Position numbers and translations under genes: made by a program. Below, one piece after another: positions 166 to 28,857 of a stretch of DNA of 30,672 nucleotides. The stretch's first letter is position 1, and every line of letters starts with the position of its first letter. Source of the stretch: a virus. Under the pieces are notes generated by a model. It saw only the letters and a program-made list of their open reading frames with translations. It was not told the origin of the DNA and did no database searches. The stretch spans positions 1 to 30,672 of IMG/VR virus record IMGVR_UViG_3300017917_000578; one strand, written 5' to 3'.

Positions 166-174
166 CTATTTATA
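166..174 (+). promoter_or_regulatory. Class 2 (late-type) promoter motif CTATTTATA
   Basis: CTATTTATA ends 4 bases before the ATG at 179 and starts 2 bases after a terminator T run. The core TATTTATA is the reverse complement of the T4 late core TATAAATA. It recurs before many starts in this window, and the gp55-like sigma gene at 5500-6234 is the likely reader (inference). Confidence 0.6.
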
Positions 175-178
175 AAAT

Positions 179-2146
179 ATGCCAAGTATAAATTTTTCGG
201 TTACCTCGAGCAGACAGCAGCTACCTTACCCTCTACCTGCAAATACTGAGTTGACAATGAGTATTGGAAACCCTTTAAGCTATGCTTCTTATGCTGGTTT
301 GGAAAGTACTTCTAACGTATCAGGTTTTTATACTACCCTATCTCCTAAAAGTTTATCTGGTTCTATTATTAGTTCAAGCGGACTTATTGATATCATTCAG
401 GATGACTATAAGATGCTTGCAGTAGTTAAGCCGGGCGGTGGTTCTATTGTGTACAAACCTTCTAATTATGTTTCCGGTTCTGATTTATATATGACCGGTG
501 TAGGTGCAGGGGAGAATTACTACTTCTCTTTTACTATAGATACAACAGCTGTTGCATCAACAGGCTCTACTAGCGGTGGAACTTTTAAGCTTCCTTTATC
601 CGGATCTTTTCCGTTTACAGCAAGTGTTGATTGGGGAGATGGTACTTTAAGTTATATTAGTTCATCAACTCAAGCGGAGGTGACTCATGTATATCCTGCA
701 ACTGCAAGTTACTTGGTTCGAATATCGGGATCTCTTCCAAACTGGTCTTTTAGAGCTCCGGCATCTGGTGATATGTTGAAGTTAAGGACTATTAATTCTT
801 GGGGAGGGTTACAACTGGGTTTCCCTAACATGTTTTATAGTTGTAGTAATATGGTAGTTCTAGCATCAGACGCTCCTTCTTTTTCTTCTACTTCTATGAT
901 GTTCATGTTTAGGGATTGCCACCTCTTTAATGGATATGTAAACAACTGGGATGTTTCTAGAGTAACTAGTTTTAGAAGTTGTTTTAATAGCTGTTCTATA
1001 TTTAACCAACCTATGGATAAATGGGATGTAGGCAGTATTACTTTATTTCAATTCATGTTTGCGAACAACCATCCTGCTATCTTTAACCAGGATATAGGGA
1101 TGTGGAATGTTAGTAACGGTACTAACTTCTCAACGATGTTTCAGGAACAGCGTTTATTTAATCAGGATCTAAGCCGTTGGAATGTATCGAAAGCTACAAG
1201 TATGAATTATATGTTCTTTAACTGTTCAGCTTTCGATAAGCCTTTAAATACCTGGAATGTTAATAATGTTACTACTATGGCTGCGATGTTTGGTGTTGAT
1301 TTAGGAGAAGGTTTTGGTACCTTTAATCAGCCTTTGTCAAACTGGAATGTCAGTAAAGTTACCGATTTTAGCTCTATGTTTCAAGTTCAGAGAAGGTTTA
1401 ATCAAGATATCTCTATGTGGAACGTTTCAGGAGGTTTAAACTTTTCCTATATGTTTGCTGCAGCTCCAGAATTTACTGGTTCTATAGGTAGTTGGAATAT
1501 GTCTAATGCTACTAACTTAGAAGCAATGTTCTTTGGGGCTAGTAAGTTTAATAGTGATATATCTAAGTGGAATACCGCTAAGGTAACTAATATGTCTTGG
1601 ATGTTCTCTACCTACTGGGCGGGTGTTTCTACTGTATCTAGCAGTTTCCCTACTACTGTGATCTTCAACCAACCTTTAGCTACTAGTGGATCATCTTGGA
1701 ATGTTAGTAAGGTTACTACTTTTAAAGGTATGTTTGCATCTAACTCTTTCTTCAATCAAGATATTAGTAATTGGAATGTTAGCGGTGCAGTAACTATGTC
1801 CGGTATGTTCTACAGTGCTTCTTCTTTCAATCAGAATATAGGTAGTTGGAATGTTAGTAGTTCTGTGTTGATGGACTCTATGTTTGCTGGAGCTACGTCT
1901 TTCAATCAGAATTTAGGGTCTTGGAATGTTAGAAATGTTACTGATATGAGTTTGATGTTTGAAGGAGTTACGTTATCTACTGCTAACTATGATGCACTAT
2001 TAATCGGCTGGAATTCTCTACCTTCTCTAAAACTAAATGTTAATTTCCACGGTGGATATTCTAAGTATAGCCCAGCTGCTTCTGCTTCGAGGTCTAATCT
2101 TATATCAACTTATGGATGGACAATTATTGACGGTGGACCTGCTTAA
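179..2146 (+). CDS. BspA-type (DUF285) repeat protein with PKD-like domain; putative virion adhesin
   Basis: The 655-residue protein has three parts. Residues 1-125 are of unknown fold, possibly a virion anchor. Residues about 130-185 look PKD-like, with WGDGT at 152-156 and HVY at 170-172. From about 257 to 590 there are about 13 BspA-type repeats, each built around FNQ-x-(I/L)-x-x-WNVS-x-x-T-x-M-x-x-MF. The C-terminus (YDALLIGW, then WTIIDGG) matches the usual end of such repeat arrays in Bacteroidota surface proteins. No signal peptide is visible, which fits a virion protein better than a secreted one. It is the first gene after a terminator and a late-type promoter. A role in binding host surface or polysaccharide is inferred. 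The repeat family assignment is firm; the function is not. Confidence 0.85.
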   Translation: MPSINFSVTSSRQQLPYPLPANTELTMSIGNPLSYASYAGLESTSNVSGFYTTLSPKSLSGSIISSSGLIDIIQDDYKMLAVVKPGGGSIVYKPSNYVSGSDLYMTGVGAGENYYFSFTIDTTAVASTGSTSGGTFKLPLSGSFPFTASVDWGDGTLSYISSSTQAEVTHVYPATASYLVRISGSLPNWSFRAPASGDMLKLRTINSWGGLQLGFPNMFYSCSNMVVLASDAPSFSSTSMMFMFRDCHLFNGYVNNWDVSRVTSFRSCFNSCSIFNQPMDKWDVGSITLFQFMFANNHPAIFNQDIGMWNVSNGTNFSTMFQEQRLFNQDLSRWNVSKATSMNYMFFNCSAFDKPLNTWNVNNVTTMAAMFGVDLGEGFGTFNQPLSNWNVSKVTDFSSMFQVQRRFNQDISMWNVSGGLNFSYMFAAAPEFTGSIGSWNMSNATNLEAMFFGASKFNSDISKWNTAKVTNMSWMFSTYWAGVSTVSSSFPTTVIFNQPLATSGSSWNVSKVTTFKGMFASNSFFNQDISNWNVSGAVTMSGMFYSASSFNQNIGSWNVSSSVLMDSMFAGATSFNQNLGSWNVRNVTDMSLMFEGVTLSTANYDALLIGWNSLPSLKLNVNFHGGYSKYSPAASASRSNLISTYGWTIIDGGPA

Positions 2147-2157
2147 AATTTAAATTT

Positions 2158-2388
2158 ATGAATAGTATACAATTTCCAACACAAACAACCTTTTACATCG
2201 CTTCTACTGGAGCTGATTATAGCTTCGGCTCAGTAACTTCGGAACAGGAATTAATTACCCCACATACAACTTTATGGACGACTTTAGATGAGTCTGAGTG
2301 GATTTCCAAACTAGAGGTTGACTACGGGATCAGCCCATATAAACGTCTTGATGGGGTGAGTTTTGCTGCTAATAATGATCTTTTCTAA
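2158..2388 (+). CDS. Small protein of unknown function, possibly virion-associated
   Basis: This 76-residue protein follows the BspA-type gene after 11 bases and probably shares its late transcript. I recognise no family. It is acidic and aromatic-rich and contains no membrane segment or Cys. Phrases such as TTFYIASTGADYSFG resemble the N-terminal parts of short phage fibre or decoration proteins, but this is only an impression. Codon use resembles its neighbours. Confidence 0.65.
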   Translation: MNSIQFPTQTTFYIASTGADYSFGSVTSEQELITPHTTLWTTLDESEWISKLEVDYGISPYKRLDGVSFAANNDLF

Positions 2389-2395
2389 CAGGTAA

Positions 2396-2403
2396 TATTT
2401 ATC
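2396..2403 (+). promoter_or_regulatory. Degenerate class 2 promoter motif TATTTATC
   Basis: TATTTATC ends 7 bases before the ATG at 2411 and differs from TATTTATA in the last base only. Confidence 0.4.
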
Positions 2404-2410
2404 AGAGACT

Positions 2411-2563
2411 ATGGCACCATCAAAAGGAAAATCAAAATCAGCCGCTGTTATTGTAAAGATTGCAAAGAAGCAGGTTAAAAGAAAAGGCATTCATGCTAAG
2501 ACTAAAATGTCTAAAAACAAAGGATCTAAGAACTACGTAAAAGTTTCTAGAGGACAGGGTTAA
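2411..2563 (+). CDS. Very basic 50-residue phage protein
   Basis: An ATG at 2411 opens 50 codons ending in TAA at 2561-2563, filling the gap between two other genes. The product has about 16 Lys/Arg residues and no Asp or Glu. Its second half (KGIHAKTKMSKNKGSKNYVKV, ending SRGQG) resembles, from memory, a short conserved protein seen in environmental phage genomes. A late-type motif lies 7 bases upstream. The composition fits nucleic-acid binding or a packaged basic protein, which is inference only. Confidence 0.7.
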   Translation: MAPSKGKSKSAAVIVKIAKKQVKRKGIHAKTKMSKNKGSKNYVKVSRGQG

Positions 2564-2564
2564 T

Positions 2565-2595
2565 TTGCTTTCTTAGTTATTTTTACTTATATTAA
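2565..2595 (+). promoter_or_regulatory. Class 1 (Bacteroidota housekeeping-like) promoter
   Basis: TTG at 2565-2567, exactly 20 bases, then TATATTAA at 2588-2595. The ATG at 2601 is 5 bases further on. Spacing and composition match the Bacteroidota -33/-7 pattern and three other sites here. Confidence 0.55.
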
Positions 2596-2600
2596 CTGTT

Positions 2601-2831
2601 ATGAACAGTTCATGGAGAATTATTGCAGTTCAACCTGATAAACACATTGCAGGTGTTTTGAGATTATCGGATAGTAAAAAATTCTTTCTCGGTGATATAA
2701 CACCATACGGTCCTATAAGTAAATTCAGTGTTTACCAAGGGTCTATCCAAGTAGAAATGGGGCTTAATAATGTTCATGGGATTAAAGAAATTCAACGAGC
2801 AACCCTTATGTATTTGCAGGAGTTGCCGTAA
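2601..2831 (+). CDS. Small protein of unknown function
   Basis: The 76-residue product starts MNSSWRIIAVQPDKH and appears to be mostly beta-strand with a C-terminal helix. No catalytic motif, Cys pair or membrane helix is visible. It has its own host-type promoter, so it may be expressed early, unlike the flanking late-type genes. A T-rich run follows at 2832-2840 without a convincing hairpin. Confidence 0.7.
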   Translation: MNSSWRIIAVQPDKHIAGVLRLSDSKKFFLGDITPYGPISKFSVYQGSIQVEMGLNNVHGIKEIQRATLMYLQELP

Positions 2832-2852
2832 TTTTTTTTCTTTAATCTGTCG

Positions 2853-2861
2853 CTATTTATA
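2853..2861 (+). promoter_or_regulatory. Class 2 promoter motif CTATTTATA inside a small palindrome
   Basis: CTATTTATA lies 17 bases before the ATG at 2879, a longer gap than usual. It is embedded in an imperfect inverted repeat (CGCT 2851-2854 with AGCG 2866-2869) followed by five Ts at 2871-2875, so the site could also act as a weak hairpin. Confidence 0.5.
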
Positions 2862-2878
2862 TAAAAGCGCTTTTTAAA

Positions 2879-3643
2879 ATGAACAAAGAATTTGATAGAA
2901 TGTTGAAACTTGCTGGTCTTATGACTGAAGGTTTGTATACCTCTGATAAGAAGGCCCCTATGGGTAGGATGATGAAACTTGCCGGTCTTATGACTGAAGG
3001 CTTGTATACAAATCAAGAAGCTTACGAAGAGCCTGTATCAGAAGCTCCCGTAGAGAAAATGACTAAAAGTAAGTTGAAGGCGAAGATTAAGGAGTTAATG
3101 CTTCCTGAAGAAACTATTGGTCAAGAAGCTTATGCTGAGATGGGCAGTATGGATGAGGCTTCTCCTGAAGCTATGAATAGAATGTCAGGGTTGTCTCCAG
3201 TATCGTCTGTTGGTTCGTTAGTCGATGCAGCAAGAAGGATTATTTCTGCTTTGAAGGAAGAGGGCTTTGAGGAGGAGGATATCTACGACTATATCATGGA
3301 TAAAGTTAAGACTTTGTCTATAGATGAAACTCTTTTTGAAGCTAAAAAAGATGAAGAGGAGGAGGCTCCTGAAGATGTTGATATAGATGTTGAAGCTCCT
3401 GTTGAATACAATCCTAACCCGGCAGGTACAGAGGATACAGCAGATACTTCGGTAGATGTTAATATGGACGGTGTTCCTGATGTTGATACTGGTTCTTCTG
3501 AATCTAAGAAAGCTTTCACGAATTTGGTTGATACCTACAATGCTGCTAAAGAATTAGGTGATCCTAAGTTAACCCAAATGATTGCTAATGCTATAACTTA
3601 CTACAATAAGAATATCATTCTTAAGACTGGTCAACAAGCATAA
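2879..3643 (+). CDS. Acidic protein with duplicated KLAGLMTEG N-terminal motif; candidate head-internal protein
   Basis: The 254-residue protein opens with two near-identical 15-residue segments, RM(L/M)KLAGLMTEGLYT, at residues 7-21 and 30-44. The sequence MTE followed by G resembles a T4-type prohead protease site, (L/I)-x-E before a small residue, but with Met at the third position. Residues about 155-205 are very rich in Asp and Glu. They end in DVNMDGVPDVD, which resembles a calcium-binding DxNxDG loop. The C-terminal 50 residues are helical. A late-type promoter precedes it and a strong terminator follows. A head core, scaffold or packaged role is inferred from these traits; no homologue was identified. 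Confidence 0.8.
   Translation: MNKEFDRMLKLAGLMTEGLYTSDKKAPMGRMMKLAGLMTEGLYTNQEAYEEPVSEAPVEKMTKSKLKAKIKELMLPEETIGQEAYAEMGSMDEASPEAMNRMSGLSPVSSVGSLVDAARRIISALKEEGFEEEDIYDYIMDKVKTLSIDETLFEAKKDEEEEAPEDVDIDVEAPVEYNPNPAGTEDTADTSVDVNMDGVPDVDTGSSESKKAFTNLVDTYNAAKELGDPKLTQMIANAITYYNKNIILKTGQQA
2900..3009 (+). repeat. Tandem in-frame duplication of a 41-base segment
   Basis: Bases 2900-2940 and 2969-3009 match at 38 of 41 positions by my count, with a period of 69 bases (23 codons). The differences include two synonymous T/C changes, so the copies look recent or are under selection at the protein level. Confidence 0.9.
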
Positions 3644-3661
3644 TTAAACTTAAAAATATTT

Positions 3662-3689
3662 GGAAAGGATGCCTTACGGTGTCCTTTTC
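3662..3689 (+). terminator. Rho-independent terminator
   Basis: A 10-base stem, 3664-3673 with 3678-3687 (two G-T wobbles), encloses a TTAC loop and ends in TTTT. It closes the transcript of the 2879-3643 gene and abuts the promoter motif at 3690-3698. It argues that the gene downstream begins at 3705 and not at the in-frame TTG at 3660. Confidence 0.75.
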
Positions 3690-3698
3690 CTATTTATA
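3690..3698 (+). promoter_or_regulatory. Class 2 promoter motif CTATTTATA
   Basis: CTATTTATA directly follows the terminator at 3662-3689 and ends 6 bases before the ATG at 3705. Confidence 0.6.
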
Positions 3699-3704
3699 AT
3701 ATAT

Positions 3705-4142
3705 ATGGATCCTAAATTAGTATTTGGATTATTTCAAGACCCTGAAGATAAGTCAGAGAGCAAGGTGAAAGAGATTTCAGACTTCTCAGAGCATCCGTAT
3801 ATTTACATGGGAATGTTTACCCGGATTATATTCAGAGGAGATGTGTTGAATGATCAGGTACTAAAATTTTTTACAGAGATTAATAGGGATATAGATAAAA
3901 CAAATCTAGAGCAGGCTAATAAGAATTTGATTTTCAATAGAGCTTATTCGTATCTCAAGCAATTGAATTTAGAGAATTCTTTCCACGTTGATACGCTTTT
4001 AGATAAGGGGGATGACACGTTCCTACAAGCTTGTACAGTTGCTTTAAATCATTTTTTGGAGTTGGAAGAATATGAAAAGTGTAGTTTCTTAAAAAATATT
4101 ATTGGATTTGTAGAATTTTCTCAAAATAAGTTGCCTTTGTAG
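3705..4142 (+). CDS. Conserved-looking phage protein of unknown function
   Basis: I chose ATG 3705 because the longer reading from TTG 3660 would run through the terminator and promoter; the protein is then 145 residues. It begins MDPKLVFGLFQDPEDKSESK and is predicted mostly alpha-helical with several hydrophobic stretches but no clear membrane span. No catalytic motif is recognised. The late-type promoter and position among virion-linked genes suggest a late role such as assembly or structure. This is inference. Confidence 0.75.
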   Translation: MDPKLVFGLFQDPEDKSESKVKEISDFSEHPYIYMGMFTRIIFRGDVLNDQVLKFFTEINRDIDKTNLEQANKNLIFNRAYSYLKQLNLENSFHVDTLLDKGDDTFLQACTVALNHFLELEEYEKCSFLKNIIGFVEFSQNKLPL

Positions 4143-4220
4143 TTTTCCCTTCGTATCATCTATACATGGGGGTTGGGAAAAAGAGGAGACAAGAAGGGAC
4201 ATAATAAAGTATATAACAAT

Positions 4221-4430
4221 ATGAGATATAGAGATCAAGTAATTAACAAAGTAGAGGTATTAGAAAGTACCTTAAAAGTATTAAGACAGGTTGTCCAAAG
4301 ACAAGAGCCGATCAAGACTTATTTAGAAACTATCGAAAGAGCGGAAGCACAACTCGAACAAGTTAAACAATATGTTGAGATGGAGCCGGTAACTTCTAAT
4401 GAAATAGGTGGCTTTTCCGGACAAAGGTAA
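4221..4430 (+). CDS. Short coiled-coil protein of unknown function
   Basis: From ATG 4221 the product has 69 residues. Residues about 7-53 form a heptad-like helix (VEVLESTLKVLRQVVQRQ onward), suggesting a coiled coil. The frame also stays open back to a TTG at 4173, which would add 16 basic residues. That start would sit 4 bases after TATACATG (4161-4168), 21 bases from a TTG at 4137-4139, so a class 1-like promoter with a TTG start cannot be excluded. An inverted repeat (4143-4149 with 4175-4181) lies in the same interval. The next gene follows after 13 bases. Confidence 0.6.
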   Translation: MRYRDQVINKVEVLESTLKVLRQVVQRQEPIKTYLETIERAEAQLEQVKQYVEMEPVTSNEIGGFSGQR

Positions 4431-4431
4431 C

Positions 4432-4439
4432 TATCTTTA
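4432..4439 (+). promoter_or_regulatory. Class 1-like -7 element TATCTTTA
   Basis: TATCTTTA ends 4 bases before the ATG at 4444. No TTG is found at the expected -33 distance (TGG at 4409-4411), so only half of the promoter is convincing. Confidence 0.4.
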
Positions 4440-4443
4440 AAGT

Positions 4444-5232
4444 ATGAATTTAACAGCAGAACAAATCCAATCAAATTGGGAAGAATTTTTAGGATATATT
4501 GATACCTATATTTCAACACCAAGGAAAGAAGCTTTGCGTAAGTTTTATGAAGACCGTGTGGATAGATTTATCTTGATGCCGGCAGCTCATACTACTAAGT
4601 ACCATAACTGCTTTCCCGGAGGTTATATAGAGCATGTTAACCGTGTTATTAAAGTTTCTTTACATTTTGCAAAACTTTGGGAGAAGTTCGGCTGTGATAT
4701 GTCTACTTTTACAATCGAAGAGTTAGTCTTTGCTGCTATGAATCACGACTTAGGTAAAGTAGGTGATAGTCAAAATGACTTATACTTGCCTGGAAAAGAT
4801 GAATGGCGTAAGAAGAACTTGGGTGAGGTTTATTCTTACAACAATGAGGTTGCTTTCATGACAGTCCCTGATAGATCTTTATTCTTACTTCAAGAAGCTG
4901 GAATTAGGTATTCTATGAATGAGATGTTAGCTATCAGGACTCATGATGGACTTTATGAAGAAGCTAACAAAGCTTATTTAATTTCCAGAATGCCAGAAAG
5001 CAGACCTAAGTCCGTAATCGTTTACATTCTACATCAAGCAGACTTAATGGCTTCAGTAGTTGAGATGACCGTTAATCCTACAGAACAACCTAAGTCAAAA
5101 CAGTTCTCAATTTCAAAAGAGACTACTCAGAAAAATCCAACCACACATCAACAACAAGCAAAAAATAAAGCGTTATCTAACATTCAGAGTGACGGTTTAA
5201 AAAATGCGATGTCTAATTTCTTTACAGACTAA
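4444..5232 (+). CDS. HD-domain metal-dependent phosphohydrolase
   Basis: The 262-residue protein carries a typical HD-superfamily signature: H64 (in GGYIEHVNRV), the H101-D102 pair in NHDLGK, H167-D168 in RTHDGLY and D200 in HQADLMA. These would bind one or two metal ions for phosphoester hydrolysis. The substrate cannot be read from sequence; nucleotides, RNA 3' ends (YhaM-like) or cyclic nucleotides are possible. The last 50 residues are Gln/Lys/Asn-rich and probably disordered. The stop overlaps the next start (TAATG). It is likely early, given the host-type -7 element. Confidence 0.85.
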   Translation: MNLTAEQIQSNWEEFLGYIDTYISTPRKEALRKFYEDRVDRFILMPAAHTTKYHNCFPGGYIEHVNRVIKVSLHFAKLWEKFGCDMSTFTIEELVFAAMNHDLGKVGDSQNDLYLPGKDEWRKKNLGEVYSYNNEVAFMTVPDRSLFLLQEAGIRYSMNEMLAIRTHDGLYEEANKAYLISRMPESRPKSVIVYILHQADLMASVVEMTVNPTEQPKSKQFSISKETTQKNPTTHQQQAKNKALSNIQSDGLKNAMSNFFTD

Positions 5233-5519
5233 TGGTAGCTTTAGTAGTAATATTGAGTCTAGTAGTATGTGTATTAGGATACACTACGTTTAACTTATTA
5301 CGTAAAAATGAAAAGCAGGAAGATGTTTTAACAGCTTATTTACTGTATATGGATAATCTATCCAAGATTATCGAACATAGTGATCAACAGCTAGAAAAGA
5401 TTGATAGTAAAGGCACATTCAAAAGTGATGACGAGATCGGTTGGTTCTTCGAGCAAATAAAGGTTATTCAAAGCAGATTAAATAACTTTAAATTGACCGA
5501 TGGCCGAGAAGAAAAATAA
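5232..5519 (+). CDS. Small single-pass membrane protein
   Basis: The 95-residue protein begins with a hydrophobic helix (residues about 2-22, MVALVVILSLVVCVLGYTTF) followed by basic residues, so an N-out, C-in bitopic topology is probable. The remaining part is helical and acidic. Its start overlaps the HD gene stop by one base, indicating coupled translation. The 20-base overlap with the sigma gene downstream ties the three together. It could be a spanin-like or anchor protein, but nothing proves either. Confidence 0.75.
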   Translation: MVALVVILSLVVCVLGYTTFNLLRKNEKQEDVLTAYLLYMDNLSKIIEHSDQQLEKIDSKGTFKSDDEIGWFFEQIKVIQSRLNNFKLTDGREEK

Positions 5520-6234
5520 AAATTACTTTACTCACGATACCGAGCTTGCAATAATCAAATATGTTAACACAGAGGATTATGCAGAACGTAATAAGATCTA
5601 TAGAGAAGAGATTCACTATGCATTGTATAAGTTAACACAAAACTTAATACACACTTTTAAATTCTACTACACAGAAGAAACAAACCTAGAAGACCTACAG
5701 CACGAAGTAATAACCTTCCTACTAACCAAACTCGATCGCTTTGATCCTTCGAATGGGGCCAAAGCGTATTCTTATTTTGGAACCGTAGCTAAGAGGTACT
5801 TAATTGCATCCAACCAAAAGAATTATAAAAAGCGGATGGAGTTACTTTCGCTGGATAGTTTAAATACAGAGCAGGAGGACGGAGAGGTTGTTTACGGTGA
5901 CATCTTAGATCAGAACGGAGTACAAGCTGACACTGAAGTATTTCATCCAGTAGATCAAGTATCTGAGTTTTTAGATATCTACGTTACGTATTGTACGGAT
6001 AACATTTATGAATTATTCCCTAAGGATGAAGATGCACAGATTGCTGATGCTATCCTTGAATTATTTAGGAAAAGAGAGCATATCAGAATCTTTAATAAGA
6101 AAGCCCTCTACATTTATATCAGAGAGATTATCGATGTTAAGACCCCTAGAATTACGAAAGTAGCAAATGAATTAGGAGAACTCTACAAGAATCAGTATGC
6201 ATTCTACGTAGAGAATGGTTACGCAAGCTTCTAA
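5500..6234 (+). CDS. gp55-like late-transcription sigma factor
   Basis: This 244-residue protein resembles phage T4 gp55, the sigma-like factor that directs host RNA polymerase to late promoters. Residues about 60-105 look like sigma region 2: NLEDLQHEVITFLLTKLDRF, then an aromatic and basic helix with YSYFGTVAKRYLI. The N-terminus (NKNYFTHDTEL) also parallels gp55-type starts. It is longer than T4 gp55 (185 residues), with a C-terminal extension including a basic helical part (residues about 185-235). The start overlaps the upstream gene by 20 bases. The many TATTTATA motifs in this window are its likely targets (inference). gp55-class sigma assignment is probable, not proven. Confidence 0.75.
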   Translation: MAEKKNKNYFTHDTELAIIKYVNTEDYAERNKIYREEIHYALYKLTQNLIHTFKFYYTEETNLEDLQHEVITFLLTKLDRFDPSNGAKAYSYFGTVAKRYLIASNQKNYKKRMELLSLDSLNTEQEDGEVVYGDILDQNGVQADTEVFHPVDQVSEFLDIYVTYCTDNIYELFPKDEDAQIADAILELFRKREHIRIFNKKALYIYIREIIDVKTPRITKVANELGELYKNQYAFYVENGYASF

Positions 6235-6247
6235 ACTGTACTACTTT

Positions 6248-6256
6248 CTATTTATA
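6248..6256 (+). promoter_or_regulatory. Class 2 promoter motif CTATTTATA
   Basis: CTATTTATA lies 13 bases after the sigma gene stop and 15 bases before the ATG at 6272. It probably opens the baseplate transcript. Confidence 0.55.
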
Positions 6257-8796: not shown

Positions 8797-8804
8797 TATT
8801 TATA
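8797..8804 (+). promoter_or_regulatory. Class 2 promoter motif TATTTATA
   Basis: TATTTATA ends 4 bases before the ATG at 8809, the commonest spacing in this window. Confidence 0.6.
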
Positions 8805-9612: not shown

Positions 9613-11469
9613 ATGGCAGTAAAAAGAGACATAAAATACTTAAATAAAGATTTTAGCACATTAAGGGCTTCCTTAATAGACTATGCTAAAACTTATTTCC
9701 CCACAACCTATAATGACTTCAGTCCATCATCTCCTGGAATGATGTTTATGGAAATGGCTGCCTATGTTGGAGATGTAATGTCTTTCTATTTAGACAATCA
9801 GATTCAAGAGACATATTTACAGTATGCTCGCCAGACTGATAACTTGTTTGAGTTAGCTTATATGTTTGGATACAAACCAAATGTAACAGGAGTTGCTACA
9901 ACAACCATTGACTTTTATCAACAAGTACCTGCAAAAACAGCAGGTTCGGATATAATCCCTGATTTTGATTATGCTTTATTGATTGCTGAAAATGCAGTTG
10001 TAACATCAACCTCTAACAGCGAGATTAAATTTTTAGTTCAAGATAGTATAGACTTTTCAGTATCATCATCACAAGATCCAACAGAAGTTACAATCTTCCA
10101 AACAGCAGGATCAGATCCAGTTAGTTACCTTTTAAAGAAAAGCAGACAAGCAATCTCTGCTACAATTAATACCGCTGCATTAACTTTTACTACACCGGTG
10201 CAATTTGACACTAGAGTAATTAATGCAGATAAAATCGTTGGTATATTGGATGCTACAGACAGTGACGGTAATACTTGGTACGAAGTAGATTATTTAGCTC
10301 AAGATGCAATCTACTCCGGTATTAAGAATACAAACCCCAACGACCCTAATCGTTCATCTGATAATGCAGACACACCTTACATTCTACAATTAGAACAAGT
10401 ACAGAGAAGATTTGCAACCAGATTCCTAGATTCAGGATCATTACAGTTACAATTCGGAGCAGGTACTGCAACAGATACTGACGAGATTATTACACCAAAC
10501 CCAAACAACGTAGGTCTTGGATTACCTTTCCAACAGGCTAAGTTGACGACTGCTTACTCACCTACAAACTTCATCTTCACAAAGACATACGGCATTGCCC
10601 CTTCAAGTACAACCATCAACGTTAGATATTTAACAGGAGGAGGAGTAGCTGCAAACGTTCCATCAAACGATCTAACAACTGTTACTGGAGATATTAGTTT
10701 CTTAAATTCAAACCTTAATGCAACTACAGCAAACACCTATAGAGCATCTTTGGCAGTAAATAACCCAAATGCAGCAGTTGGAGGTCAAGATGGTGATAGC
10801 ATTGAGGAATTAAGACAGAACACCTTATCTAACTATCAAACTCAATTACGTAACGTAACTCAAGACGACTATCTGGTAAGAGCATTATCAATGCCAGCTA
10901 AGTACGGAGTTATCGCTAAAGCATATATTGAACAAACTAAGGTTGCTAATTTAGGAATAGGTGAAACACCAACAACACTAGACTTGTACGTGCTAACTTA
11001 TAACAGCAACAAAAACTTAGTTACTGCCTCTACTGCATTAAAACAAAACCTCGACACTTATTTATCTCAATACAGAGTAATAGGTGATTCAGTTAGGATT
11101 AAAGATGCTTTCGTAATTAACATAGGAGTTAATTTTGATATAACAGTTGCTGCAAACTACAATAGTAACGAAGTAATTTTCAACGCTATTGCTGCAGTTA
11201 AAGAATACTTTAACATAAACAACTGGCAGATCAATCAACCTATCTTACTGAAAAACTTAAGCCTTTTGATCGATAATATTGACGGAGTACAGACAGTTAA
11301 GAATGTTGAAATCGTTAACTTATCTGGACAAGCTTTAGGTTATTCTAACTACTCATACGATACAAAAGGAGCTACAATTGATAACGTAGTGTACCCTTCT
11401 ATAGATCCTATGATCTTTGAGGTTAAGTATCCAAACGTAGACATTAAAGGGAGAGTAGTTTCTCTTTAA
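9613..11469 (+). CDS. Baseplate wedge protein, gp6-like (baseplate J family)
   Basis: The 618-residue protein is close in length to T4 gp6 (660). The N-terminus (DIKYLNKDFSTLRASLIDYA, then SPGMMFMEMAAYVGDVMSFY) is the classical gp6/baseplate J opening. A central domain carries GDSIEELRQNTLSNYQTQLR around residue 395-415, typical of the J-type core. The C-terminal third forms the wedge-interacting domain. gp6 dimers make the iris-like ring that holds baseplate wedges together. The gp25-gp6 order is conserved in T4-like phages. Confidence 0.9.
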   Translation: MAVKRDIKYLNKDFSTLRASLIDYAKTYFPTTYNDFSPSSPGMMFMEMAAYVGDVMSFYLDNQIQETYLQYARQTDNLFELAYMFGYKPNVTGVATTTIDFYQQVPAKTAGSDIIPDFDYALLIAENAVVTSTSNSEIKFLVQDSIDFSVSSSQDPTEVTIFQTAGSDPVSYLLKKSRQAISATINTAALTFTTPVQFDTRVINADKIVGILDATDSDGNTWYEVDYLAQDAIYSGIKNTNPNDPNRSSDNADTPYILQLEQVQRRFATRFLDSGSLQLQFGAGTATDTDEIITPNPNNVGLGLPFQQAKLTTAYSPTNFIFTKTYGIAPSSTTINVRYLTGGGVAANVPSNDLTTVTGDISFLNSNLNATTANTYRASLAVNNPNAAVGGQDGDSIEELRQNTLSNYQTQLRNVTQDDYLVRALSMPAKYGVIAKAYIEQTKVANLGIGETPTTLDLYVLTYNSNKNLVTASTALKQNLDTYLSQYRVIGDSVRIKDAFVINIGVNFDITVAANYNSNEVIFNAIAAVKEYFNINNWQINQPILLKNLSLLIDNIDGVQTVKNVEIVNLSGQALGYSNYSYDTKGATIDNVVYPSIDPMIFEVKYPNVDIKGRVVSL

Positions 11470-11472: not shown

Positions 11473-11481
11473 CTATTTATA
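11473..11481 (+). promoter_or_regulatory. Class 2 promoter motif CTATTTATA
   Basis: CTATTTATA begins 4 bases after the gp6 stop and ends 4 bases before the ATG at 11486. Confidence 0.6.
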
Positions 11482-17563: not shown

Positions 17564-17571
17564 TATTTATA
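17564..17571 (+). promoter_or_regulatory. Class 2 promoter motif TATTTATA
   Basis: TATTTATA ends 7 bases before the ATG at 17579. Confidence 0.55.
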
Positions 17572-22409: not shown

Positions 22410-22418
22410 CTATTTATA
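22410..22418 (+). promoter_or_regulatory. Class 2 promoter motif CTATTTATA
   Basis: CTATTTATA starts directly after the nuclease stop and ends 4 bases before the ATG at 22423. It separates early DNA-metabolism genes from a late-type gene. Confidence 0.62.
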
Positions 22419-22422
22419 GTAT

Positions 22423-23112
22423 ATGGAGTTGAACGGCTTAGTATACGACATGATAAAAGACCTCCTACCAGAAGGTATGGAAGAAACCTATAAGGGTAAA
22501 AGAACCGACAACGGCGCTCCTGGAACTTTTAAAGCAAAAATTACAAAAGCGTACGGTGGGGATGTGACTATTGAGAAGGCTAGAAAATTTAAGAATAGAG
22601 AGAATGCTACCCCGCATGATAAACGTCAGGCAAATTGGTTTATTAATTTCCATTCGAAAAATGAAAATCTAGAACCAGCCGGTCTACAAAATACTGGAAA
22701 AGCAGCTCCTTACGGATCGGAATATACACCTGCTCAAGAAGTTTTAGTAGGATACATCCAGGAACTATCAAACTACATGAAGGAGGAGGGTTTAAACATT
22801 GAACCTGCCCCTGGTGTAAAAATGGAAGATGATGAAGAGAATGCAAAAGATCCTCTAGGGAAAACTGCTTATTACGATCCGAATAACAAAGTAATCGTAC
22901 TTTACATTACCGGAAGACACTTAAAGGATATTTTAAGATCGTTTGCTCATGAAATGATTCACCACAATCAAAACTTAGAGGATAGATTAGGTAAGATTGA
23001 AACAACAGACATCAACGAAGATGATAACCTAAAGGAGGTTGAAAGAGAAGCTTATGAGAAAGGAAACATGTACTTCAGAGGTTGGGAAAATTTAAAGAAA
23101 AGTAAAGTTTGA
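22423..23112 (+). CDS. Zinc metallopeptidase-like protein (HEXXH)
   Basis: The 229-residue protein contains FAHEMIHHNQ with HEMIH at 176-180, the classic zincin motif. A helix with REAYEKGN (about 208-215) could supply the third zinc ligand. The front half is Lys/Asn-rich, with an acidic stretch near 135-141. Residues 1-20 (VYDMIKDLLPEGMEE within them) contain LPE before G, which fits a T4-type prohead protease site. A late-type promoter precedes it. It may act on virion or host proteins; peptidase activity is probable from the motif, the target unknown. Confidence 0.72.
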   Translation: MELNGLVYDMIKDLLPEGMEETYKGKRTDNGAPGTFKAKITKAYGGDVTIEKARKFKNRENATPHDKRQANWFINFHSKNENLEPAGLQNTGKAAPYGSEYTPAQEVLVGYIQELSNYMKEEGLNIEPAPGVKMEDDEENAKDPLGKTAYYDPNNKVIVLYITGRHLKDILRSFAHEMIHHNQNLEDRLGKIETTDINEDDNLKEVEREAYEKGNMYFRGWENLKKSKV

Positions 23113-23139
23113 TAATAACAATAAAAATTCATATCTTTA
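23109..23139 (+). promoter_or_regulatory. Class 1 (Bacteroidota housekeeping-like) promoter
   Basis: TTG 23109-23111, exactly 20 bases, TATCTTTA 23132-23139, then 6 bases to the ATG at 23146. Confidence 0.6.
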
Positions 23140-23145
23140 GCACAA

Positions 23146-23748
23146 ATGAGAACATATAAGAGTTTATACGAGGAAGACGAACGAGACAACTACCTACTAC
23201 AAGACAGAGACTTAATAGTCGTAATTAAAAAACCACACACTGCTGAAGAAGCAGATAAAGCACTGCATACCAAAGACAACTACGGAATATATATCAGTAC
23301 TATGAGAAACTCAAAAGTTTCTGATAAAGATGTAGACGACTACTTTGGACCTAGAAGCCCTAACGTTAGAAACGTAAGGTTAAAAGCTCGCTTTGACAAA
23401 TTCAAAGAAGTAAATCCAGAAAGTACAATGGAGTATAGTGAGTGGTTAACAAAAGGACCTGTAGGTACTGATGTGGGGCCATACCCAATCAGAACAAAAG
23501 ACAACTACGATGCCTTTATAAATAAGTTTATAACTAAGCCAAACTTACTAAACTGGACAGTTAAGGATAACACTTTGGTATTCCCGAAAGATATAAACCC
23601 AGGAAGGAATAAAATTAAATCAATCGTAACTACAGTTTTACAGAATGCTGGGTTCGGTGAAAAAACCTTTACTTTTAAGACAGACGTATCTGAAGCAAAA
23701 CTAAAAGCATACTTAAAAGAAGAAATACTTAAGGTATACAAAAAATAA
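23146..23748 (+). CDS. Protein of unknown function
   Basis: The 200-residue protein begins MRTYKSLYEEDERDN, reminiscent of the T4 internal-protein leader MKTYQEFIAEA. The promoter is of the early host type, which weakens a virion role. The remainder is mixed alpha/beta and Lys-rich, with repeated KDNY motifs (residues about 43-46 and 125-128). The C-terminal helix EAKLKAYLKEEILKVYKK is strongly basic. No catalytic motif or Cys is seen. The next gene follows after 3 bases and is probably cotranscribed. Confidence 0.7.
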   Translation: MRTYKSLYEEDERDNYLLQDRDLIVVIKKPHTAEEADKALHTKDNYGIYISTMRNSKVSDKDVDDYFGPRSPNVRNVRLKARFDKFKEVNPESTMEYSEWLTKGPVGTDVGPYPIRTKDNYDAFINKFITKPNLLNWTVKDNTLVFPKDINPGRNKIKSIVTTVLQNAGFGEKTFTFKTDVSEAKLKAYLKEEILKVYKK

Positions 23749-23751
23749 CTT

Positions 23752-24321
23752 ATGTCAGAATCGGTTTTAAAGAAAGAATTTAAGGGGGCAGATCTTCAAC
23801 GATTACGTAATCTAGTTCAAGGAAAGATGGGAGAAAAAACTTCCGTCTCTTCCGGCTACACCAAAGACTACATTGAAAGAAAAGAAGGAGAGGTCTGGGA
23901 AGAAGACGGTCGTCAATGGACTATCAAGAACGGAGTTAAACAAACTATCTCAAAATTACAGGCAGTTAGGGATGTTGCATTAACCCCCCTATTCTGTCCA
24001 GACTGTAAAGCGTTAATGAAACATCGTTACGATAACCAGTTTTATAAAATACACCGTCACTGTTTTGACTGCCACGTTAAATTTGAAACAGAATTAAAAA
24101 GAACAGGGCAGTGGGAAGAATATCAGAACAAAATTCAAAACTCAGAAATTGATGGAATGATCAATAATTACGAGGTTTGGGTTGATGATTTACTAAATGA
24201 AAGTAACGATGGCTTCGTAACAGAACTTGGAGAGGTTGAAAGCTGGTCTAAAGTCAACAGGGATAAAATCTTGAAGCAGAAAGAAGAAGCTGTAGAATAC
24301 TTAAAAAAGTTAAAGAAATAA
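23752..24321 (+). CDS. Zinc-ribbon protein
   Basis: The 189-residue protein has a four-Cys zinc ribbon: C82-x-x-C85 in FCPDC and C104-x-x-C107 in HCFDC. It is preceded by a segment with VWEEDGRQWTIKNGVKQT and followed by a charged helical tail ending VEYLKKLKK. Similar proteins occur in T4-like phages of diverse hosts (from memory) but lack a known function. Nucleic-acid or RNA-polymerase binding is a reasonable guess for a zinc ribbon. It lies in the class 1 transcript that starts at 23146. Confidence 0.75.
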   Translation: MSESVLKKEFKGADLQRLRNLVQGKMGEKTSVSSGYTKDYIERKEGEVWEEDGRQWTIKNGVKQTISKLQAVRDVALTPLFCPDCKALMKHRYDNQFYKIHRHCFDCHVKFETELKRTGQWEEYQNKIQNSEIDGMINNYEVWVDDLLNESNDGFVTELGEVESWSKVNRDKILKQKEEAVEYLKKLKK

Positions 24322-24323
24322 AG

Positions 24324-24332
24324 CTATTTATT
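24324..24332 (+). promoter_or_regulatory. Near-consensus class 2 promoter motif CTATTTATT
   Basis: CTATTTATT ends 3 bases before the ATG at 24336 and differs from CTATTTATA in the last base. Confidence 0.5.
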
Positions 24333-24335
24333 AAT

Positions 24336-24965
24336 ATGACGAACTCTTTCAACATGTCTAACTGGAGACGTAGGCATATTTTAATGGCCGAAAACGACAG
24401 TGATCCTAAAACTACTCAACAGTACGATGAAGCTATACATGGAAAAATAACTAGTTTTGAAGATGTGCTTTTTGAACCACAAGAAGCCCCTGTAAACGTT
24501 GTTTTCAGTGTAGCTACAGAAAAAGATCTAGAGAACGCAAAAGATATTGTAGTATCTTTTGAAAAGTTTGCAAAATGGGCTAACGAAGAAGGTTATGACC
24601 TAGAAGATGAATATGCAAGTATAGATGCTGGTAAAAAGTATTTTGCAGAATATTATTCAAACTACTTAACCGATGAAGGTAGAAAGTCTTTAAGAGCTCA
24701 AATGCAAGAAGCAGAAGGACCTTCAGAAGAAGAGAATCCCGTTGATATTATCAGCATGGATGTACCTTTGTTTATTAGAATGCTTGAATTCGCAAGAGAA
24801 GATGCTTCTACAGATATGGACCTTCATGACTTAGCTGAGAAAGCAGTTAAGATGAGTGCTGAAGGACAGCCTATGTCTATGATGCATTACGATGAATTAA
24901 TAGCTAAAGAAGTTCCTGCAGTTGATGCAATGAGCTTATACGAAAAATACTTTAACGCTGAATAA
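24336..24965 (+). CDS. Acidic protein of unknown function, candidate packaged protein
   Basis: The 209-residue protein is acidic and helical. Its basic N-terminus (SNWRRRHILMAENDSD, residues 8-22) ends in MAE before N, loosely like a prohead protease site. Helical blocks such as FAKWANEEGYDLEDEYASID and FIRMLEFAREDAS follow. Cys is absent and no catalytic motif is evident. The late-type promoter and the one-base gap to the next gene suggest a late operon 24336-25917. A virion-internal role is speculative. Confidence 0.72.
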   Translation: MTNSFNMSNWRRRHILMAENDSDPKTTQQYDEAIHGKITSFEDVLFEPQEAPVNVVFSVATEKDLENAKDIVVSFEKFAKWANEEGYDLEDEYASIDAGKKYFAEYYSNYLTDEGRKSLRAQMQEAEGPSEEENPVDIISMDVPLFIRMLEFAREDASTDMDLHDLAEKAVKMSAEGQPMSMMHYDELIAKEVPAVDAMSLYEKYFNAE

Positions 24966-24966
24966 A

Positions 24967-25917
24967 ATGCCTATACGTAAGAATGCTTCTATGGAAAAAT
25001 ACATCAAGGACTTTGAAAAGTCTGATGCTCCTCAATTCAAAGGTAAATCTAAAGAGAAGAGAAGAGAAATGGCAGTAGCTGCAAAACTACAAGCTATGGA
25101 CAAAAAAATGGAAGAGGTTGACAGTATGGAAGAAGCTAAAGGTACCCTATGTGGAAGATGCGGACACGTTCATGTTAAAGGAACTCCGTGTCCAAGACCT
25201 TTCAAAGAAGGAGCTAAACCTGATTACCTAGATTTTGATAAAGACGGCAACACTACTGAGCCTATGAAAAGTGCAGTTAAAGACTCTAAATTAAAACATG
25301 AGGTTGTTGCTAACGTATTAGGTAAGATAAAAGAAGCTGAAGTATCACCTGCTGAAAAATCAGCAAAAGACGCTGAAGTAAAAGCTTTACAGCTTAGAAA
25401 AAAAGCTATTGATGATGAACTAACTAGAATTCAAAGAGCAGGATTAACAGAAGGATTAGATAGAGACTATGAAGGTGAAATGGCTAAGTCTCAACTGTTT
25501 TCTATTGTAAAAAATGCTAAGGAGCTTTTTGATATGATAGATAATAACACGCAATTAGAAGGTTGGGTACAATCTAAATTAACAAAAGCAGAAGACTATC
25601 TTTCAGCGGTTGCAAGTTACTTAGAAGGACAAAGCATCACTTCAACAACTCCGGTTATGGTAGCAGAAGAAGCTATTAAAGACGAAGGGGGAAGTAGCTT
25701 AAGTGTAGGTGATGTAGTTAAAGCCGGAGACGGTGGAATATACCAGGTTATATATTCTTACTCAGAAGGAAAACCTTTCCTAGTACCTTTTGATTTAAAG
25801 AAGAGAAAAGTGGTAAACCTACGTAATAGAATTTACTTTGATAGTGATTCATCTATTTCTAAAAGATTACATAAAGTAATGTCTCACTCTGCTACAAAAG
25901 GCGGGTTTATCAAATAA
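24967..25917 (+). CDS. Modular phage protein with Cys/His knuckle and Ca-loop-like motif
   Basis: The 316-residue protein begins with a Lys-rich helix (FEKSDAPQFKGKSKEKRREM, residues 16-35) that I recall from many environmental T4-like phages. A possible zinc knuckle follows at C62, C65, H68, H70 and C75. DYLDFDKDGNTTEP at 86-99 resembles a DxDxDG calcium loop. The second half is helical with a C-terminal beta domain (VGDVVKAGDGGIYQVIYSYS). It seems to be a string of short modules shared among phage proteins. Function is unknown. Confidence 0.72.
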   Translation: MPIRKNASMEKYIKDFEKSDAPQFKGKSKEKRREMAVAAKLQAMDKKMEEVDSMEEAKGTLCGRCGHVHVKGTPCPRPFKEGAKPDYLDFDKDGNTTEPMKSAVKDSKLKHEVVANVLGKIKEAEVSPAEKSAKDAEVKALQLRKKAIDDELTRIQRAGLTEGLDRDYEGEMAKSQLFSIVKNAKELFDMIDNNTQLEGWVQSKLTKAEDYLSAVASYLEGQSITSTTPVMVAEEAIKDEGGSSLSVGDVVKAGDGGIYQVIYSYSEGKPFLVPFDLKKRKVVNLRNRIYFDSDSSISKRLHKVMSHSATKGGFIK

Positions 25918-25935
25918 GTATTTTAGATATATCAT

Positions 25936-26448
25936 ATGCTTAATAAACATCAACTCAGGTCTTTAATTAAAAAAACTATTGTAGGAAAACTACAGAGACA
26001 GGGTATTAACAAATACAAGGAGTATAAAGTTTTAAACCACGTACCTGACTTGATTTCAATCTTAACAGACTTAATGTCTCCTAAGTTTGATTTGTTTGTT
26101 AAAGACATAGAGTGGGTATCACCAAAACCACCTACCTTTAGAATCGTATTAGAAAACGATCAATACTTCTACCTATCAGACCTTGCGAGATCTTGGGTTG
26201 CTGAAGTACAAGGTAAAAAGTACTACCTACTAAATCTAGGAGAAGAAGAAATGGCAGTCTCTGCTATCTCTAGAGTACTACGTTATGGCGCACCAGTTAA
26301 TCCAGATATGGGATTTGGAGAAGCTAGCGGCGGTACTGGAGGCGGCGGTGGGATGGAAGCACAGCTTGACCAAGCACCCGAAGGAGGGGCAGAAGCAGCA
26401 CCCGCAGAAGAAAAGCCGGAAGGAATACCTGACGAACTACTTTACTAA
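25936..26448 (+). CDS. Phage protein of unknown function with Gly/Ala-rich tail
   Basis: The 170-residue protein starts with a basic helix (KHQLRSLIKKTIVGKLQRQG, residues 4-23). A compact alpha/beta domain follows, to about residue 120. Then comes a low-complexity tail with a Gly run (SGGTGGGGG) and Ala/Glu/Pro residues ending DELLY. The tail looks flexible. No enzyme motif is seen. The stop overlaps the next start by one base (TAATG), so its product may work with the candidate ADP-ribosyltransferase-fold protein encoded next. Confidence 0.7.
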   Translation: MLNKHQLRSLIKKTIVGKLQRQGINKYKEYKVLNHVPDLISILTDLMSPKFDLFVKDIEWVSPKPPTFRIVLENDQYFYLSDLARSWVAEVQGKKYYLLNLGEEEMAVSAISRVLRYGAPVNPDMGFGEASGGTGGGGGMEAQLDQAPEGGAEAAPAEEKPEGIPDELLY

Positions 26449-27155
26449 TGGACGCACTACAGCGCTTTATAGAATTAAACAGTTATAAATTCCCTAAAGG
26501 ATACCCAGACATTAATGTTAAGGAAGACAAGGATTTGCTATTCGCTCTCATAAGAGAAGCAATAGACGGTATGGATCTAGGATACCACATAGGAGACTTT
26601 AAGAACCCCGCAGAAAGCCTCTCTGATAGGAACTGGAACTTTAAGACAAAAACAGGTTACTTAGGTACAGGGTTTTATTTTTATGGAGATTTAGAAAACG
26701 CAAAGCAAGATAGTGATTACCTAAAAGGAATCGGAAAAGGGCAAATCTCAGAAATAGACTTATCAAAATATAAACTGTACCGCAGTTCTAATCCAACCGA
26801 CTTCTACGACACAATGTCAGAGGTGACTAAGCAGGTAGGGCAGGCAGCTCCTAACATTCAAGAAGACGACCTACAATCTCCGGAAATTAAAGAAGCTATG
26901 AAAGAAATAGTGGATGTAATTACCAAAGAGTTAGGGCTTCCTATAGAAGAAGGTACCGTCGTAGGTATTGTTTCTAAGTTTATAAAGGATGTAAGAGAGA
27001 AGGTGAACGGAGAAATGCTAAGTAATAGACTACTAAAAACATTAGGATACGAAGGTATCGATAATAGAAATACTAACCTAGACCACTTCGGAGTAGGTTC
27101 AGTACTATTTACTTATAAACCAGGTTCTGCAAAATTAGTTGCAGATATAAAATAA
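26448..27155 (+). CDS. Candidate ADP-ribosyltransferase-fold protein
   Basis: Several features of the 235-residue protein recall the ART fold: YHIG with H47, then GYLGTGFYFYGDLENAK at 70-86 (the lGxGfYF...A pattern), strand-like ISEIDLSKYKLY at 100-111, and C-terminal LGYEGIDNRN at 199-208 followed by GVGSVLFTYKPG. Phage ARTs such as T4 Alt modify host RNA polymerase and other targets, and Alt is injected with the DNA. No clear catalytic Glu/Gln could be assigned, so activity is uncertain. Gene order and TAATG coupling link it to the preceding protein, which could be a partner. Confidence 0.55.
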   Translation: MDALQRFIELNSYKFPKGYPDINVKEDKDLLFALIREAIDGMDLGYHIGDFKNPAESLSDRNWNFKTKTGYLGTGFYFYGDLENAKQDSDYLKGIGKGQISEIDLSKYKLYRSSNPTDFYDTMSEVTKQVGQAAPNIQEDDLQSPEIKEAMKEIVDVITKELGLPIEEGTVVGIVSKFIKDVREKVNGEMLSNRLLKTLGYEGIDNRNTNLDHFGVGSVLFTYKPGSAKLVADIK

Positions 27156-27169
27156 AATCGTTATATTTA
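27139..27169 (+). promoter_or_regulatory. Class 1 (Bacteroidota housekeeping-like) promoter
   Basis: TTG 27139-27141, exactly 20 bases, TATATTTA 27162-27169, then 6 bases to the ATG at 27176. Confidence 0.6.
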
Positions 27170-27175
27170 GAGCAC

Positions 27176-28270
27176 ATGAATACTGAAAAAGTTATAACCT
27201 CTGAGGTAACCAACCGTGTTGTTACTATTGAGAAGTTATTAGAAATCTACAATATCGACCTAGAAATTTGGGAGATAGAGAAAAAAGTAGTCAATACATG
27301 GGAAGTAGGAGCTAAAGATCCTAATGGAGCAATCGTAACTACGCCTTTATTTCAAGTAAAGCTTTGGCTTAAAAAGAAGCAAGCTGCCTACGACTTGAAC
27401 GTACTTAGAACACAATTCTTAGAAGACCTTAAAAAACTATCGCCGGTAGTTAAGGAATACAAAAGAACTTTATCTTTAGAGACTCCAAAGTTATTAGAGA
27501 TTAACGTTTTTGATTTACATTTTGGCAAAGTAGCTTGGGATGAAGAAGTAGGTGAAAACTACAGCATCGATATTGCAACCAAACGTTTTAATGATTGTAT
27601 CGAATACTTTATTAATACTTACAGAGGACATAACATCGAAAAAATCCTTCTACCGATCGGAAACGACTTCTTTAACTCAGATAGATCTCACCCATTCAAT
27701 TCAACAACAAGTGGAACCCCTCAAGAAGAAGATGCTCGTTGGCAGAATACATTCAGAAAAGGGAGAGAGTTGATTATTAACAACGTACAGAAATTAACAC
27801 AGCTTGGACCTGTCGAAATTAAAATTATACCAGGTAACCACGACTACGAAAGAACTTTCTACTTAGGTGATTCATTAGAAGGATGGTTCTCAAACAACGA
27901 GAATGTAGTTGTAGATAACAGTCCAAACCCACGTAAGTATTTTATGTTCGGAAAATGTTTGATTGGATATACACACGGTAATAATGAGAAAATAGCAGAC
28001 TTGCCGATGATTATGGCTCAAGAAAATCCTGTGCAGTGGGCTAAGACTTTCTACCGTGAATTTCACTTAGGTCATTTGCACCATAAGAAAGAAACACAGC
28101 TTAGATCTACCAACGAATACCAGGGAGTAATCATAAGATTTATGAACTCATTATCAGGAACTGATAGCTGGCATCACAAAAAAGGATACATTGGAGCAAG
28201 AAAATCTGCTGAAGCTTTCCTATGGGATAGCGAGAAAGGATTGCAAAACCAGACTTACTTCAATATTTAA
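27176..28270 (+). CDS. Calcineurin-like metallophosphoesterase
   Basis: The 364-residue protein carries the metallophosphoesterase motifs in order: DLH (D113, H115), GND (N163, D164), GNHD (N221-H222-D223), THG (H267) and GHLHH (H300, H302). They form a two-metal centre. The first 100 residues are helical with TWEVGAKDPNG, perhaps a DNA-binding or specificity domain. It may be a DNA exonuclease or phosphatase in DNA metabolism, in line with its early promoter. It is not an obvious gp47/SbcD, since no gp46-type ATPase is adjacent. Confidence 0.85.
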   Translation: MNTEKVITSEVTNRVVTIEKLLEIYNIDLEIWEIEKKVVNTWEVGAKDPNGAIVTTPLFQVKLWLKKKQAAYDLNVLRTQFLEDLKKLSPVVKEYKRTLSLETPKLLEINVFDLHFGKVAWDEEVGENYSIDIATKRFNDCIEYFINTYRGHNIEKILLPIGNDFFNSDRSHPFNSTTSGTPQEEDARWQNTFRKGRELIINNVQKLTQLGPVEIKIIPGNHDYERTFYLGDSLEGWFSNNENVVVDNSPNPRKYFMFGKCLIGYTHGNNEKIADLPMIMAQENPVQWAKTFYREFHLGHLHHKKETQLRSTNEYQGVIIRFMNSLSGTDSWHHKKGYIGARKSAEAFLWDSEKGLQNQTYFNI

Positions 28271-28271
28271 T
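28264..28271 (+). promoter_or_regulatory. Degenerate class 2 promoter motif TATTTAAT
   Basis: TATTTAAT overlaps the upstream stop and ends 4 bases before the ATG at 28276, keeping the usual spacing but with two mismatches. Confidence 0.3.
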
Positions 28272-28275
28272 ATTG

Positions 28276-28848
28276 ATGGAGGATATCCTTTTTGAAGATT
28301 TAATTAATAATATGTATTCACTTCTGGAACAAGAGAACCCAGAAGAGCCAGAACCTTTACCTGGAGTTAATACCTTAACTAAAGAGCAGCTACGTTATAT
28401 CTTAAAGAATAGTAAAGGTAAAATTATGACCGTTGTATACAGAAAAAAAGACGGGAGTATTAGAACCATTAACACACGTACTGGAGTTAAGAAAAACATT
28501 ACCGGAGCTGGGTTAAAATATAATCCAGATGAACATGGGTATGTTATTTTATGGGATTTAAGGAAGCAAGCTTACAGGACAGTTAATTTAAATACAGTAA
28601 CTGCACTTAAAGGCGGTGGAAAGGTTTATGCTATAAAAGAAGCTATAACTAAAGTACCACTTGTTTTTAAAAACGGAGGTATTAATCTAACCGGGGAAGC
28701 TGCTTGGAATAAATGGAGAAAGTGGGCAGATCTTAATAGAAGGGATGATTTTGTGTATAAAGTGCTAGACACTATTAAAAGGCAGGGCTACTTTGCTACT
28801 CCTAAACAGCATCAAGTTTTAGTTACTTGGTTTAACCGGAAGAGGTAA
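28276..28848 (+). CDS. SH3-like small domain protein of unknown function
   Basis: From ATG 28276 (preferred to TTG 28273) the product has 190 residues. The first 30 are acidic (ILFEDLINNMYSLLEQENPE), with LFE-D near the start, a possible leader. Residues about 45-110 are strand-rich (MTVVYRKKDGSIRTINTRTG, then GYVILWDLRKQAYRTVNLNT) and suggest an SH3-like barrel that could bind nucleic acid. A basic C-terminal helical part follows. A weak late-type motif precedes it and a good one follows the stop. Confidence 0.72.
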   Translation: MEDILFEDLINNMYSLLEQENPEEPEPLPGVNTLTKEQLRYILKNSKGKIMTVVYRKKDGSIRTINTRTGVKKNITGAGLKYNPDEHGYVILWDLRKQAYRTVNLNTVTALKGGGKVYAIKEAITKVPLVFKNGGINLTGEAAWNKWRKWADLNRRDDFVYKVLDTIKRQGYFATPKQHQVLVTWFNRKR

Positions 28849-28857
28849 CTATTTATA
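28849..28857 (+). promoter_or_regulatory. Class 2 promoter motif CTATTTATA
   Basis: CTATTTATA directly follows the TAA of the upstream gene and ends 4 bases before the ATG at 28862. Confidence 0.62.

Follow-up and report, generated by a model that had tools for sequence, protein, structure and literature searches.

The box TATTTATA as the probable late promoter of a large group of T4-related phages, frequently placed for predicted leaderless mRNAs

In the 30.7-kb virus contig analyzed here (the window) the box TATTTATA recurs shortly upstream of start codons, and the question is whether it serves as a promoter for late genes, as a signal for translation, or recurs by chance in AT-rich DNA. 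The window carries the T4-like baseplate genes gp25 and gp6, and its closest isolate is the Flavobacterium phage immuto 2-6A, with a gp6 that is 47% identical over its length. A tRNA-Met at positions 29-104 is 93% identical to the Cellulophaga phages phi4:1 and phi17:2, in which no other DNA near-identical to positions 1-25000 was found; the relationship to immuto and the likeness of the tRNA together indicate a Bacteroidota host. Several long contigs served as relatives for comparison, among them G007 (166 kb), in which one protein is 97% identical.

An earlier note on this DNA had listed nine exact copies of TATTTATA, and all nine were found in place on the plus strand. Five of them end exactly four bases before an ATG (gap 4), and for these five genes leaderless mRNAs are predicted as described below: the boxes at 167..174 (ATG 179), 8797..8804 (ATG 8809, the gene upstream of baseplate gp25), 11474..11481 (ATG 11486, the gene after baseplate gp6), 22411..22418 (ATG 22423) and 28850..28857 (ATG 28862). 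The gap is 6 for the box at 3691..3698 (ATG 3705), which is kept in L008 and L009, and 7 for the box at 17564..17571 (ATG 17579), also kept by the orthologues. The distance of 3-7 bases given in the note thus applies to seven of the nine exact boxes, and has to be given up for those at 6249..6256 (gap 15 to ATG 6272) and 2854..2861 (gap 17 to ATG 2879, leadered, with the same box in G007). Three variants on the same strand could also be located: TATTTATC at 2396..2403 (gap 7 to ATG 2411), which is uncertain, TATTTATT at 24325..24332 (gap 3 to ATG 24336), a variant also seen at late genes of relatives, and TATTTAAT at 28264..28271 (gap 4 to ATG 28276), a weak variant with two mismatches that is probably no promoter, although it completes the six gaps of exactly 4 counted earlier. 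The product of the gene at 179-2146 consists of DUF285 repeats and is a probable tail-fibre or receptor-binding protein, with two matches among the gp6 loci.

For quantification of the enrichment, the window was compared with shuffled sequence on both strands, as the note had proposed. It contains 11 exact matches to TATTTATA (9 forward and 2 reverse) against 4.7 expected, and none of 100 shuffles reached 11. Matches with one mismatch were not in excess in the window (87 against 90.5 expected), and therefore only near-exact boxes count. We then ranked all 8-mers, without presetting a motif, by how strongly they are enriched in the 60 nt that precede ORFs. TATTTATA came out as the top 8-mer of the window, with 7 of its 11 sites in only 3.1% of the sequence (p=8e-9), and it is likewise first in immuto, which is complete and annotated, and in the close relative G007 (32 sites). 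It ranks second in G001 and G011, third in G002, fourth in G012, 13th in G010 and 39th in G008. In the more divergent contigs the ranking is led not by the exact TATTTATA but by ATATTTAT, the same box taken one base earlier, which is the top 8-mer in G001, G002, G008, G010 and G012 and ties with TATTTATA in G011. The whole genome of the relative Mel-JY01 (PP395634) has ATATTTAT at rank 1 and TATTTATA at rank 3, whereas 50 kb of it alone showed no enrichment. Compared with the 55 other permutations of T5A3, TATTTATA is among the top three in all of the nine genomes or contigs except G008. The sites are also well placed: in immuto a start follows within 60 nt for 24 of the 30 forward sites, and for 13 of 14 in its structural block at 112-160 kb. 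When the same script was applied to T4 it returned TATAAATA at rank 1 and TATTTATA at rank 166, and with S-PM2 it returned ATAAATAA (ATAAATA) first, which shows that the ranking picks up established late promoters and that an enriched TATTTATA is not common to T4-like or AT-rich genomes at large. A recurrence by chance would agree with the lack of excess among the one-mismatch matches, but it is at odds with the excess of exact matches, the strand bias, the permutation control and the replication in nine genomes or contigs; it is refuted by the 8-mer rankings, and we consider its probability negligible.

As TATTTATA is the reverse complement of TATAAATA, the note had proposed a promoter in reverse orientation to T4. 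This part of the proposal does not hold, since TATTTATA points the same way as the T4 box relative to the gene and the likely start A. Read in place, the two boxes share six of eight bases, including the adenines at -12 and -8, and the only two differences are AA to TT at the middle positions (-10/-9 in T4 numbering). Two substitutions and a common direction make a flip unnecessary, and the reverse-complement relation simply follows from the box being near-palindromic. T4 gp55 holds both of these adenines in its pockets, stacking on the one at -12 (PMC7892883), and it is the in-place reading of TATTTATA that keeps both.

It is clear from the genes behind the boxes that the motif is specific for late functions. 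Among orthologues from eight genomes or contigs, the exact TATTTATA was found in 35 of 107 orthologue-genome pairs for late genes and in none of the 69 pairs for replication or metabolism (p=2e-9, which is only indicative because the genomes are related and the pairs non-independent), and in several genomes it stands before the sheath, tube, hub, tape measure and portal genes. In none of eight genomes did the major capsid gene (immuto 126896) have an exact TATTTATA in the 60 nt before its start, and the gene may be expressed by read-through from upstream promoters or from a variant box. As in T4, a single 8-bp AT box near -10 reads toward virion genes with no -35 element, the positions from -45 to -2 of the box containing no information in 67 sites. 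The idea of a late promoter is therefore strongly supported, by the virion genes, by the lack of the box at every replication gene tested, by the missing -35 box, by the gp55-like sigma treated below and by the recurrence in nine genomes or contigs. TATTTATA is most likely the late (virion-gene) promoter of a large T4-related phage group, and in this phage often occupies a position from which the mRNA would be leaderless.

Alignment of homologous phages, also proposed in the note, shows that the box is kept at orthologous genes while the flanks have diverged and the distance to the ATG varies, from 7 to 21 bases for the 17579 gene, from 13 to 31 for the sheath gene and from 12 to 22 for the 6272 gene, whose orthologues have the exact box in seven of eight genomes. 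This conservation of the box alone argues for an element acting on the DNA level in transcription and against a ribosome-binding site. An A/U-rich ribosome-binding or enhancer element in place of a Shine-Dalgarno sequence would explain why the gap is exactly 4 at five genes of the window, and another start signal is to be expected in phages devoid of Shine-Dalgarno sites. Such an element should, however, have a fixed spacing at most genes, and the box, which all replication genes tested lack, is found before a minority of the genes, at distances that range from 1 to 49 over all sites; furthermore the gap-4 genes mostly lack the A at -3, a base favourable to initiation in Flavobacterium (PMC6847099). 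We regard a translation signal of this kind as very improbable. The role in translation starts that the note had considered as an alternative is thereby dismissed for ribosome binding, and survives only indirectly, in that a gap-4 mRNA is predicted to begin on the start codon.

The box could also be a variant of the host sigmaA promoter rather than a promoter for a phage sigma. The Bacteroidota sigmaA promoter consists of a -33 TTG and a -7 box TAnnTTTG, and TATTTATA falls in the same register as this -7 box, -12 to -5 relative to the start (PMC9723704), with a partial likeness (TAnnTnT). Yet TATTTATA has neither the terminal TTG nor any information at -33, and it marks virion genes, whereas other genes of these genomes are preceded by a different motif of host-like design, in which a TTG stands some 20 nt ahead of TTCGTATATT or TATATTTAG. 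A host sigmaA promoter is thus an unlikely explanation for TATTTATA. The two-box motif itself has GGA instead of TTG in some contigs, its downstream box also reads TATATTTAGgTAT, and in immuto TATATTTAGgTATcaATAATTAAAA; it is located before many non-structural genes in immuto NC_055915 (L088, L006), G007, G010, G012 and G001, and is probably an early or middle promoter for the host sigma.

Returning to the late promoter, the strongest signal on the 3' side of the box is an A at the fifth base (index 12), present in 85% of 67 sites. The same A is found in 86% of 116 sites with a gap of at least 8, against a background of 47%, and with the ATG this far away the signal is not the ATG itself. At the leadered sites index 11 is equally rich in A (88%), so that the +1 could be one base earlier, an uncertainty of about one base. 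If the A five bases after the box is taken as +1, the register matches the promoter-to-start spacing measured in Flavobacterium, where the sigmaA box at -12 to -5 (PMC9723704) is followed by the transcription start after 4-5 nt (PMC6847099); T4 late boxes are quoted at -13 to -6 (PMC1524935). We propose that the promoter of the immuto-like lineage of T4-related phages would be A or C followed by TATTTATA, approximately four bases and an A as +1, and that host RNA polymerase carrying the phage gp55-like sigma would recognize the single box, located around -12 to -5, make no -35 contact and fire the virion genes.

The distances from box to ATG have two peaks, with 23 sites at gap 4, 22 at gap 13 and few at 6-9. 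In G007, gaps below 10 are equal to 4 in 11 of 13 cases (p=6e-10), and about a third of all promoters (11/32) lie exactly four bases from the ATG. The distance is 13-52 in T4 and never under 13, and TATAAATA-N4-ATG is absent from both T4 and S-PM2. If index 12 is the +1, a box at gap 4 has its +1 on the A of the ATG, as predicted for five genes in the window; in immuto (NC_055915) gap-4 sites include those at 10515 and 142462. The simplest reading of these distances is that the late mRNAs of gap-4 genes would be leaderless, with transcription starting on the A of the start codon, while most of the remaining promoters in the genus of the window would give short leaders. Only 13% of the gap-4 genes have an A at -3 compared with 64% of the leadered late genes (p=6e-6), which is what is expected if the bases before the ATG lie outside the mRNA, and the gap-4 spacer follows the composition of a promoter and not that of a leader. 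In 17 of the 23 gap-4 genes the end of the box forms an in-frame TAA or TAG two codons before the ATG, which excludes an upstream start in those genes. Shine-Dalgarno sites were not found in phages of the window lineage, and are used by T4, S-PM2 and Mel-JY01. In Mel-JY01 they are present in 30% against 5% in the control, and the gaps are 8-52 and mostly above 26, corresponding to long leaders; across the group the leader length seems to go with the use of Shine-Dalgarno sites.

It could be argued that the promoter is correct and that the +1 lies a few bases off, so that gap-4 mRNAs have leaders and the genes are translated in another way. The A-richness of index 11 at the leadered sites would agree with this, as would the existence of gaps 3 and 5, but gap 4 is sharply preferred over these (23 against 6 and 9), the box and four bases leave no room for a leader beyond a base or two, and the spacer is promoter-like in composition. 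We find leadered gap-4 mRNAs rather unlikely. Conversely, there is a high probability that the lineage has a new late promoter consensus which works like that of T4, is probably read by the gp55-like sigma and is frequently placed for leaderless mRNAs. Our literature searches found no paper on TATTTATA as a phage late promoter and none of relevance on Flavobacterium phage promoters. If leaderless late mRNAs are confirmed, this would be the first T4-related phage with a systematic use of them, as far as the literature searched shows. Leaderless genes in Actinobacteria and Deinococcus have a -10 box about 10 nt before the ATG. They resemble the present case in having a promoter box at a fixed short distance from the ATG and the start codon at +1, and differ in that the arrangement described here is linked to a phage late sigma. 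In the hosts of the lineage leaderless mRNAs are few, amounting to 5.5% in F. psychrophilum (PMC9723704).

The gene for the putative late sigma is located at 5500..6234 on the plus strand and encodes 244 amino acids. The note had called it gp55-like, and it does contain sigma region 2, although the match to gp55 in sequence is weak. Region 2 is present in all 16 family members, 15 of which weakly match the PHROG late-sigma family. The single protein matches gp55 with E ~0.01, the family aligned by hhalign with T4 and S-PM2 gp55 gives E=1e-4 and a probability of 55%, and no match to PDB sequences was obtained with the window sigma. A structure model (mean pLDDT 62) resembles sigma region 2, with T4 gp55 as the third structural match by Z (10.4), tied with other sigmas. 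The phage sigma of the lineage, KNV73_gp118 in immuto, is probably related to gp55 through region 2. Beyond region 2 the window protein has a conserved C-terminal helical region, approximately residues 151-244, with which it exceeds T4 gp55 in length by about 60 residues. Profiles for gp33 (PF16805) and the gp45 C-terminal domain (PF09116) found nothing in G007, G008, G001, immuto or Mel-JY01, a result that could miss diverged forms, and both match T4 and S-PM2 as positive controls. PF09116 was used for gp45 since PF02916 misses S-PM2 too; a PF02916 match in G008 was rejected as a clamp, the long frames there reading by eye like a glycosyltransferase and a phosphoesterase. Either activation differs from that of T4 or the proteins are too diverged, and the profile searches suggest that the clamp-based activation of T4 may be absent in the lineage. 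A tentative and rather doubtful extension is that the late sigma might work independently of gp33 and the sliding clamp by means of its extra C-terminal domain, and that a large share of virion mRNAs might be leaderless, so that the late switch would change the mode of translation. Were both true, the synthesis of late proteins would rely on 5'-AUG initiation, which the host rarely uses.

The late consensus is known to vary among T4-like phages, with NATAAATA in S-PM2/Syn9 and CTAAATA in Aeh1, the latter paired with a diverged gp55 (PMC1524935, PMC2984593), and the Aeh1 example shows that it is not fixed. The present phages have TATTTATA enriched instead of TATAAATA or NATAAATA, and so share with S-PM2/Syn9 and Aeh1 a lineage-specific late consensus in which different bases are changed; gap 4 is found neither in S-PM2 nor in T4, where the leaderless-position arrangement of the box is absent. 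Our IMG/VR scan gave at least 594 stretches encoding relatives of the window gp6, and for this large, mostly uncultured aquatic lineage, which has one sequenced Flavobacterium isolate group (immuto), the box provides a concrete and testable late-promoter rule by which late operons can be recognized in contigs. With it comes one more kind of alteration of the T4 late box to set beside alterations of the gp55 pocket, which amounts to a natural experiment on sequence choice by a minimal sigma. For the gp55 pockets, the hhalign alignment maps Y97 to a kept Y92, and N13, H95 and T99 to the changed residues T11, Y90 and G94, which would fit the changed -9 base; we did not accept this mapping as evidence, because of its uncertainty and because H95 is changed in S-PM2 as well. 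In G008, the most different contig, the late box takes the form ATATTTAT with a T or an A after it, and TATTTATT is found upstream of genes more often than TATTTATA (31 against 12), possibly reflecting a further drift of the consensus.
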